Shown here: positions 1,152 to 63,712 of the stretch, piece after piece
Layout: each line of letters opens with the position of its first letter
How positions within the stretch are numbered: the first letter of the stretch is position 1
Source: Phycisphaerales bacterium
Lineage (GTDB): Bacteria > Planctomycetota > Phycisphaerae > Phycisphaerales > SM1A02
Assembly: GCA_009691805.1 (NCBI GenBank)
Contig: SIAK01000007.1
Span: forward strand, 1 to 64,000
Direction: 5' to 3'
Length of the DNA: 64,000 nt
Notes under the pieces: model-generated
What the model saw: only the letters and a program-made list of their open reading frames with translations
Database searches by the model: none
Told to the model about the DNA's origin: nothing
Translations under genes and position numbers: made by a program

Positions 1152-1290
1152 TTTTAGCGCTCGCGCAAGATTCTGGCCGCAGCGGCCAAATCTTGCACTC
1201 GCTTTCGACTCAACCGTCGCGAGTGAATCGCGAACGGTTGAATTCTGGCGGGCACTTCAGTCTTTTTGTCCCCTCACCGACTCCGTCGGT
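1152..1290 (+). repeat. dispersed three-hairpin intergenic repeat, copy A
   Basis: Hairpin 1 gcaagatt-c-tggccgc-a-gcggcca-aatcttgc (1165-1196); linker gctttcgac; hairpin 2 tcaaccgt-cgcga-gtgaa-tcgcg-a-acggttga (1210-1241); hairpin 3 accgac-tcc-gtcggt (1276-1290). Same architecture at 43281 and 63511. Confidence 0.8.
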
Positions 1291-42391: not shown

Positions 42392-43195
42392 ATGGACCGC
42401 ATGTTGCGTGCTGTCCGCTCATGGCTATGTCATGATCGGGCTGCATCAGTAGCGACCGTGGCTGTTTTTTGCCTTGGCGTTGCTGTTACACAATCTGCTT
42501 CGGCAGATGCACCAGTTCTCACGTTGCTTGTCGACTCTGGGATGTTTGGGAAGCAGGTCCAACTGACCCCGAACTCGGTCTCGAGTTCAGGCACAGGAAC
42601 CTATTACGGTTCTGTCATTGGCCCAAGCGATGTCTGGAGTCTTGACTACAACCTCCTCGCAAATGGTGGACCTACCACAGCTTGGAACCAAGGTTCTTTC
42701 ACCTTCCGAAACTTGGCCGAGACCGTTCTTGATTTTCATATCACGCTCGTGATGCCGCTCAGTTCGACCGGCGCGATGAACGGCTTCTACAACGGTTCAC
42801 TCGGCGGCGCACTCATCGCTAACGCAAATGGTGGGCAGTTCACTTCGCTCGCGGGATTGCCGCTTTATCAGAGCAGCGCGAATGGAAACAGTGTTGCGGC
42901 ACTCTTCAACAGCCCACTTTCGATCACACGGCTGACGGCAGGCTCGTCATCTATCGGATACCAGTCATTCGGCGGAACTTCACCGACGCTGCCTGGTCCC
43001 GAGTTCATGACGAACATCAGCTATCAGCTTCATTTCAGCCTCACAGGAGGGGATACGGTCGTCTTTACGGCGGCCCTCGGAGGTCTTGGAACACCTGTTC
43101 CCGCGCCAGGCGCATTTGCGCTGCTCGGAGTTGCAGCCGTCACCGGTCTCGGTCGACGGCGCCGCGCAACTAAAACAATTCCAAGACGGACGTGA
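42392..43195 (+). CDS. exported protein with PEP-CTERM-like sorting signal
   Basis: N-terminal signal peptide; C-terminus VPAPGAFALLGVAAVTGLGRRRRATK. Confidence 0.85.
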   Translation: MDRMLRAVRSWLCHDRAASVATVAVFCLGVAVTQSASADAPVLTLLVDSGMFGKQVQLTPNSVSSSGTGTYYGSVIGPSDVWSLDYNLLANGGPTTAWNQGSFTFRNLAETVLDFHITLVMPLSSTGAMNGFYNGSLGGALIANANGGQFTSLAGLPLYQSSANGNSVAALFNSPLSITRLTAGSSSIGYQSFGGTSPTLPGPEFMTNISYQLHFSLTGGDTVVFTAALGGLGTPVPAPGAFALLGVAAVTGLGRRRRATKTIPRRT

Positions 43196-43245
43196 GCAAG
43201 GTTGTAGTTACCACTCACTCGCCGCCATCTGGTCCCTTTCCGCCC

Positions 43246-43283
43246 GTCGCTCGGCTCCTCGTGAGTCCGAGCGACGATTTTTT
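43246..43283 (+). terminator. Rho-independent terminator
   Basis: gtcgctcgg-N12-ccgagcgac followed by gatttttt. Confidence 0.85.
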
Positions 43284-43418
43284 AGCGCAAGCGATGGAAT
43301 TCTGCCCGCAGCGGGCAAATTCCATCGCTTGCTTTCGACTCAGGCGCTGCGAGTAATCGCAGACGCCTGAATTCGTGTGTCCACTTCAGTCTTTGATCCC
43401 CTCACCGACTCTGTCGGT
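43281..43418 (+). repeat. dispersed three-hairpin intergenic repeat, copy B
   Basis: Hairpin 1 gcaagcgatggaatt-c-tgcccgc-a-gcgggca-aattccatcgcttgc (43287-43332, 22 bp); hairpin 2 tcaggcg-c-tgcga-gtaa-tcgca-ga-cgcctga (43340-43370); hairpin 3 accgac-tct-gtcggt (43404-43418). Confidence 0.82.
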
Positions 43419-43466
43419 GGTGGGTGTGTTGCTGATATAGTCTCCGACCCCCGTCCGAGCACCACT

Positions 43467-43886: not shown

Positions 43887-44630
43887 ATGCACATCCGCGA
43901 CACGGAAGTCGTGACCGACGAAACTTCGCCCGCGCAAGAAAGCGCAGCGGTTGAAGTGACCTCCATTGATTCCGCCACAACCTCCACGACGACGAAGGCG
44001 CTCCTCTTTGAAGGTGGCGACCTGCCTTGTGGTGACCTTTCACTCACGGCGCGCGTTGAAGCAGCGATTCTTCTCTCGGATCGACCGATCTCCGAAGCAC
44101 GTCTAGCGGAAGTGTTGGGATTCGTTCCGATGAAAGATTGCGAGAACGATGCCGAAGATGGTGCGGCGACTGCAAAGGATTCGAAGGCTATCGCCTCACG
44201 ACGCAAGGCTGCAGTCGATGCGATTCGCACTGCGATTGATGAACTCAATCAGACGTACGCGCAAACCAATCGCGCCTTCCGCATTGAAAGTGTTTCGGGC
44301 GGTCGACAAATGATCACGCTGCCCGCATATGGCGCAATCGTCGCTCGATTGCGCGGCGTCAAGGCGCAAACTCGGCTCTCGCAAGCTGCCGTGGAAACGC
44401 TTTCTATCGTCGCGTATCGGCAACCGATCATGCGCGCGCAACTCGAAGCGATTCGCGGTGTCGCGTGTGGTGAAGTCCTAAAGAGTTTGATGGAACGCCG
44501 ACTCGTGAAGATCACAGGTCGCGCGGAAGAACTCGGTCGACCGATGCTGTACGGCACGACACCTGAGTTCTTGCGCGTGTTCGGCATCGCGTCCATCAGC
44601 GATCTGCCTGAAGCAAAAGATTTGCGCTGA
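43887..44630 (+). CDS. scpB: SMC-Scp complex subunit ScpB
   Basis: VEAAILLSDRPISEARLAEVLG; RLSQAAVETLSIVAYRQPIMRAQLEAIRGVACGEVLKSLMERRLVKITGRAEELGRPMLYGTTPEFLRVFGI. Confidence 0.95.
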   Translation: MHIRDTEVVTDETSPAQESAAVEVTSIDSATTSTTTKALLFEGGDLPCGDLSLTARVEAAILLSDRPISEARLAEVLGFVPMKDCENDAEDGAATAKDSKAIASRRKAAVDAIRTAIDELNQTYAQTNRAFRIESVSGGRQMITLPAYGAIVARLRGVKAQTRLSQAAVETLSIVAYRQPIMRAQLEAIRGVACGEVLKSLMERRLVKITGRAEELGRPMLYGTTPEFLRVFGIASISDLPEAKDLR

Positions 44631-63499: not shown

Positions 63500-63510
63500 A
63501 TTGCGAAGCT

Positions 63511-63712
63511 TGAGCGCAAGCGCGGAATTTGCCGCGCAGCGCGGACAAATTCCGTCGCTCGCTTTCGACTCAACCGTCGTAGTTGAGCGCTCATGCGGGT
63601 TTCTCGCCGCAGCGGCGAAAACACTGCAATCGCTTTCGACTCAACCGTCGCGAGTGAATCGCGAACGGTTGAATTCGTGCGTGCACTTCAGCCCCTCACC
63701 GACTCCGTCGGT
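63511..63712 (+). repeat. dispersed three-hairpin intergenic repeat, copy C (compound; two hairpin-1 units)
   Basis: Unit 1 cggaattt-g-ccgcgc-a-gcgcgg-ac-aaattccg (63523-63554), linker gctttcgac, short tcaac/gttga; unit 2 tcgccgc-a-gcggcga (63604-63618), linker, hairpin 2 (63641-63672), hairpin 3 (63698-63712). Confidence 0.8.

Follow-up and report, generated by a model that had tools for sequence, protein, structure and literature searches.

Dispersed REP-like hairpin elements behind genes in a genus of Planctomycetota, a candidate new family of mobile palindromes

Element copies in the window and across the genome

The stretch of DNA analyzed here (the window) comprises positions 1 to 64,000 of contig SIAK01000007.1 (C3) from an assembly of a Phycisphaerales bacterium (G000; 2.6 Mb in 92 contigs, 94.6% complete). 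Near its start, the + strand gene upp, encoding uracil phosphoribosyltransferase (504 to 1151; Pfam UPRTase, E = 1.8e-75), ends with a TAG stop codon at 1149 to 1151, and 1 nt later begins copy A of a structured repeat (1153 to 1290, + strand; 151.9 bits with covariance model R1, which was built from 29 copies). Copy A is one complete unit of an element of 100 to 140 bp, in which the border TTGAGCG is followed by a hairpin (H1), the linker CTTTCGACT, a second hairpin (H2) with a bulged A and a GTGAA loop, and then a tail with a third hairpin (H3). The tail with H3 occurs only in the species represented by G000, as the H3 block was not found in three congeners at up to one mismatch.

All parts of copy A can be placed on the + strand. 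The 5' border reads TTTAGCG (1153 to 1159; consensus, TTGAGCG) and forms a left edge that is conserved across four species. H1 (1165 to 1196), identified from the sequence and with RNAfold, has the form GCAAGATT-c-TGGCCGC-A-GCGGCCA-AATCTTGC. The constant linker CTTTCGACTCA (1202 to 1212) runs into H2 (1210 to 1241), whose arms TCAACCG/CGGTTGA and CGCGA/TCGCG enclose the GTGAA loop at 1223 to 1227, with the bulged A near 1233; H2 is defined by genus-wide covariation and by the bulge and loop counts given below. The species-specific tail (..CACTTCAG..CCCCTC; 1250 to 1275), delimited in alignment A1, leads to H3, ACCGAC-TCC-GTCGGT (1276 to 1290), after which there is no run of T residues.

Two further + strand occurrences lie in the window. 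Copy B (43281 to 43418; 147.4 bits with R1) is complete and directly follows a hairpin, read in the sequence, that resembles the intrinsic terminator of the upstream gene (GTCGCTCGG..CCGAGCGAC plus T6; 43246 to 43283, + strand) and whose T run overlaps the 5' border of the copy. The genes around copy B are at 42392 to 43195 and 43887 to 44630; the upstream gene encodes a 267-amino-acid protein with no Pfam match and a C terminus resembling a PEP-CTERM tail, and the downstream gene encodes a homolog of ScpB. Copy C consists of a first unit with H1, the linker, and a broken H2 (63510 to 63579), recognized from its sequence, and a second, complete H1-H2-H3 unit with a shortened tail (63583 to 63712), which was also placed in alignment A1. 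A preliminary description of this DNA had reported the three-hairpin order at 1152, 43281, and 63511, always in + orientation after a + strand gene. The parts are present at these places and on this strand; the orientation holds in the window but not as an absolute rule, as a further copy beyond the window on the same contig (65309 to 65446) is on the - strand; it is the upstream gene that sets the reference for orientation.

Within the window, the exact linker CTTTCGACTCA is found four times, each time inside an element unit, but the linker word alone is not rare there (4 matches at up to one mismatch versus 2.1 expected). The H3 block CCCCTCACCGACTCNGTCGGT occurs 3 times versus 0.01 expected. 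Across G000 there are 60 exact matches to the linker and 41 matches to the H3 block at up to one mismatch, bearing out the earlier proposal of a dispersed family with further genomic copies. Counted locus by locus, the H1-H2 units number about 67 and are spread over about 45 loci, either as singles or in tandem arrays with a period of about 100 or 140 bp. Two exact linker matches lack H1 and look like chance (L095 and L109:2101). Ten of the 45 loci are within 500 bp of a contig end, compared with 1.6 expected, as happens when near-identical repeats interrupt an assembly, so the copy count is probably a lower bound. At three loci (L094, L100, and L114), the 12-mer GTAGTTGAGCGC and degenerate variants of it are tandemly repeated over a short stretch just 5' of H1.

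Conserved fold and paired stem variation

Four features of the strand-asymmetric element are constant across the genus: the TTGAGCG border, the linker CTTTNGACT, the loop of H2, and one bulged base in the 3' arm of that hairpin; the stem sequences vary between copies, but the loop and linker do not. The loop is GTGAA or ATGAA in 36 of 40 distinct H2 sequences, and among the 35 sequences that allow a single bulge to be placed, 30 have A as the bulged base. The stem pairs quoted in the preliminary description for different copies are correct and differ on both sides at once. In an alignment of the 40 distinct H2 sequences (A3), whose rows were prefiltered for at least 8 of 12 pairs and whose cells are not independent events, 95.2% of cells are paired and 10 of the 12 pairs have changes on both sides. 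Two-sided changes fill 83 cells of this alignment and one-sided changes fill 2, with shuffles giving 22 two-sided cells, which upholds the compensatory changes that had been proposed. The covariation score of H2 is 0.496, compared with 0.120 for shuffled alignments and at most 0.083 when the partner is slid. The non-Watson-Crick cells are few, with 4 G-U and 7 A-C; G-U is not above A-C, whereas selection at the RNA level predicts that wobble pairs are favored, and the counts thus lend no support to such selection.

The other hairpins vary as well. G000 contains at least six core types of H1 and at least five of H2, which combine freely between copies, and H3 has a two-sided variant, ACCGGC/GCCGGT, at L092. 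RNAalifold missed H1 in alignment A1 because the H1 types are offset by one base; H1 was judged by folding alone (median z of about -2.4 to -2.8).

Position behind genes, taxonomic range, and insertion

The element is interspersed and extragenic and lies mostly 3' of genes. With our own gene calls, the upstream neighbor is on the strand of the element at 31 of 38 judged loci in G000. After stricter filtering, 21 of 31 loci have a stop codon of the same strand no more than 25 nt upstream (mean of 10.0 and maximum of 17 in 10,000 draws from a simple placement model, which served as the null for position). The same bias is found in the sister species G003 (14 of 26 loci; null, 3.1; maximum, 11) and is not seen in G002 (1 of 9 loci). 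The border (GCGTAG)TTGAGCG often provides the stop codon itself, with TGA inside TTGAG in about ten genes and TAG in others. Copies also lie behind genes for tRNA-Arg (L091) and tRNA-Gly (L182); together with the terminator-like hairpin before copy B, these indicate that the common factor is the 3' end of a gene and not translation. In G003, an element on the - strand (L141, around 2172 to 2230) directly follows a sequence resembling the 3' end of a tRNA or tmRNA, GGGGGTTCGAATCCCCCCGGCTCCA, at which ARAGORN and Rfam call no gene.

Searching 120 relatives with R1, with up to 27 candidates scored per genome, identified at least 22 to 27 copies in every species of the genus, four in all (G000 and its sister species G001, G002, and G003, with one assembly per species), no copy in the other genera of the family, and no convincing copy outside the genus. 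One match in a member of the same order (G109; E = 0.008) was set aside as apparently due to chance, being single, weak, without the linker, and similar in sequence to a coding repeat. A pattern scan of GTDB, in which single matches in unrelated genomes were treated as chance, found multiple copies only in SXUI, SXUJ, and QWPV, which match the sister species G003, G002, and G001, respectively. QWPV is the Lake Zurich metagenome-assembled genome ZH-13MAY13-plancto70, listed among Phycisphaerae genomes (CL500-3, "Nemodlikiaceae") in a study in which the term "palindrom" is absent (PMC6461901). Literature searches found no description of this element family, and viral contigs contained no element matches that would point to carriage by phage. 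As far as searched, the family appears to be restricted to one genus of Planctomycetota.

Orthologous sites in the sister species reveal how the copies arose. In all three, only a short spacer separates upp from the next gene, and the element is absent. C-terminal peptides combined into one composite query served to look for the sites of eleven more copies, and those of L092, L105, L115, L121, and L122 are likewise empty in all three sisters. At the six sites empty in every sister, the coding end is preserved, give or take a few codons. The two sister loci readable for each of L094 and L108 lack the element, as does the single sister locus recovered for L100; for L111, two sisters have an empty site and G001 has a different repeat. 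G002 and G003 carry an element at L118, where G001 has none. At L113, the three sister loci contain no unit of the element type, and G001 has another repeat there. The empty orthologous sites show that the element spreads by insertion, as read from these sequence comparisons. No constant target-site duplication was found at them, and in addition to the TTGAG-like sequence before H1, 19 of 34 copies have one after H3. Some regions appear to have been occupied repeatedly or since before speciation: the orthologous regions of L093, L107, L110, L112, L116, and L120 contain elements or remnants in another species, of that species' own subtype. In all, seven examined loci are occupied in another species too, which can mean old inherited copies, insertion hot spots, or a selected role.

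Relation to known elements and interpretation

The closest known system is the GTAG family of REPs, with BIMEs and REPINs, which is associated with RAYT transposases. Both consist of interspersed palindromes that are strand asymmetric and contain a bulge, lie at the 3' ends of genes, often supply a TAG stop, and form tandem or inverted clusters; both are specific to a genus or species. In G003, two H1-H2 units face each other in inverted orientation across a short spacer at five loci (L142, L143, L146, L154, and L155), forming a compound palindrome with a layout like that of a REPIN or BIME. In G001, a further repeat (TTTTAGCGTTCGCGACTGACCGCGCGTTG...CGGTTTCGCTC...TACGGCTCGGCGAG) with an apparently element-related layout is found at gene 3' ends (L170, L279, and L281). 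Unlike GTAG REPs, the element combines two or three hairpins joined by constant linkers, and its stems differ on both sides between copies while loop and linker are unchanged. Like MITEs, it is short, nonautonomous, and dispersed; unlike MITEs, it has no demonstrated terminal inverted repeats or target-site duplication, with TTGAG-like direct repeats flanking many copies. In the double-hairpin elements of Allomyces, several hairpins make up one mobile unit. Such organellar elements, as generally described, are mitochondrial and differ in sequence, and the likeness would lie in the number of hairpins per unit. CGTC-tagged REPs are extragenic palindromes reported without a dedicated transposase (PMC3733652), as here, but have another sequence and architecture; a 5' flank of [GA]TCC[CT] in 15 of the 23 G-type units of G003, some with CGTC, bears a weak resemblance to them.

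No mobilizing enzyme of the RAYT type was found in most of the genus. G000 has no match to PF01797 (Y1_Tnp), and a RAYT-like protein of G001 used as query found none in G000, G002 (100% complete), or G003 (99% complete), so the RAYT partner suggested in the preliminary description was not borne out for this genome or for two of its three sisters. G001 contains five RAYT-like genes of the Y1 type encoding proteins of about 390 amino acids and found in no other member of the genus (L298 to L301 and L303 to L307); four of the proteins are 45 to 57% identical to the query copy, and 3-kb stretches around four of the five genes contain no element. Known structured families did not account for the repeat either. 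Rfam returned only a tRNA in the window and no element match at E ≤ 0.1 at seven loci, in keeping with the earlier statement that it belongs to no named family. A scan for intrinsic terminators found none at 1100 to 1400 and, with the 12-nt loop of the hairpin at 43246 to 43283 exceeding the scan's loop limit, none at 43150 to 43450; H3 lacks the T run of a terminator. The preliminary description had named as grounds against itself a lack of further copies, a lack of covariation, or a terminator, IS end, or attC family that explained the repeat; more copies and strong covariation were found, and none of these explanations fits.

The reading that we favor, at a probability of about two in three, is a new family of nonautonomous REP-like extragenic palindromic elements that probably move via folded single-stranded DNA (ssDNA) and occur, so far, in one genus of Planctomycetota. 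Insertion, the bias in orientation and position, the conserved fold with two-sided stem changes, the strand asymmetry, and the absence of RAYT are the observations behind it. Each unit (TTGAGCG-H1-linker-H2, with the H3 tail in the G000 species) would insert just 3' of a gene and in its orientation, often supplying the stop codon, and would amplify locally into tandem arrays. The mobile form would be the folded single-stranded DNA of one strand, and a putative enzyme would recognize it by its bulges, loops, and borders and not by the sequence of its stems. TnpA-REP and the IS200/IS605 transposases act on folded ssDNA in this way, reading bulge, loop, and border (PMC8266576). Stems may stay paired as they drift through copying from arm to arm (hairpin template switching, which has been published as a source of compensatory changes at several bases [PMC8794818]) or through exchange of whole stems between copies. 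A stronger form of this proposal, in which the hairpin element moves without any Y1/RAYT enzyme, its stems are rewritten arm to arm, and only the geometry of the fold (bulge, loop, and borders) is inherited as stem sequence drifts freely, is tentative and may well be wrong.

The preliminary description had left the choice between a structure-based REP- or MITE-like ssDNA element and a 3'-untranslated-region (3'-UTR) RNA; REP/MITE-like behavior held up, but the evidence did not support an element that is primarily a 3'-UTR RNA. On that alternative, which we consider unlikely, transcribed hairpins would block exonucleases, act as attenuators, or stall ribosomes, and the paired changes would result from selection on the structure of the RNA. 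The strong covariation, the location of copies behind genes and in gene orientation, and the occupation of several sites in more than one species are all consistent with such a function, and an effect on translation has been reported for REPs of E. coli that are at most 15 nt from a stop codon (PMC12306157). A functional RNA sits poorly, however, with six examined sites that are empty in every sister species, with copies behind tRNA genes and behind the terminator-like hairpin at 43246 to 43283, with the near lack of one-sided (wobble) intermediates and of any excess of G-U over A-C, and with an element found in no taxon outside the genus. Given the empty sites, the terminator-like hairpin, the copies after tRNA genes, and the lack of wobble preference, the ssDNA element fits better than the 3'-UTR RNA. 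A secondary effect on host mRNA 3' ends is plausible, possibly as a by-product.

Less probable still is a classical GTAG REP/REPIN system whose RAYT (TnpA-REP) is missing from the assembly or was recently lost. GTAG directly precedes TTGAG in 24 of the 53 C-type units of G000 and TAG does so in 33, and the inverted pairs of G003 are also as expected of such a system. GTAG REPs are located downstream of genes, in the gaps between open reading frames that run in one direction or converge, form dimers, and often supply the TAG stop of flanking frames (PMC3733652), and TnpA-REP of E. coli requires GTAG and the bulge but leaves much of the stem flexible (PMC8266576). Against this, Y1_Tnp is missing from G000 and from the essentially complete G002 and G003, most Y1-like genes of G001 have no element around them, and the tag is only partly conserved: it stands at the 5' base of 0 of 10 C-type units in G002 and of 2 of 9 C-type and 0 of 23 G-type units in G003. 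REP palindromes measure 20 to 40 bp and have a bulge or mismatch; the bulged A of H2 is conserved, but the unit has two or three hairpins and, at 100 to 140 bp, exceeds a REP in length three- to fivefold. The element appears to act like a REP, but membership in the RAYT-linked GTAG family is not shown. Highly improbable is an origin as attC sites of a dispersed chromosomal integron, which likewise lie behind genes, are structured and strand asymmetric, and have variable stems. In H2 of the CAACCG type, the RYYYAAC...GTTRRRY core (ACTCAAC...GTTGAAT) happens to be present, but the motif is missing from the other H2 types, TIGR02249 found no integron integrase over its cutoff in the four genomes (only XerC/D-like matches), and the copies are scattered genome-wide rather than in cassette arrays.

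Returning to the family of REP-like ssDNA elements, these results carry the warning that strong covariation alone is no proof of a functional RNA. If true, arm-to-arm copying of the stems would make the family a natural record of compensatory change without selection at the RNA level. Lake Planctomycetota have compact genomes, with a median intergenic spacer of 43.5 nt in "Nemodlikiaceae" (PMC6461901), to which a structured mobile family would now be added. Its dozens of copies let two-sided stem changes be followed, and the source of paired substitutions in hairpins, whether RNA selection or DNA template switching, thereby becomes testable.
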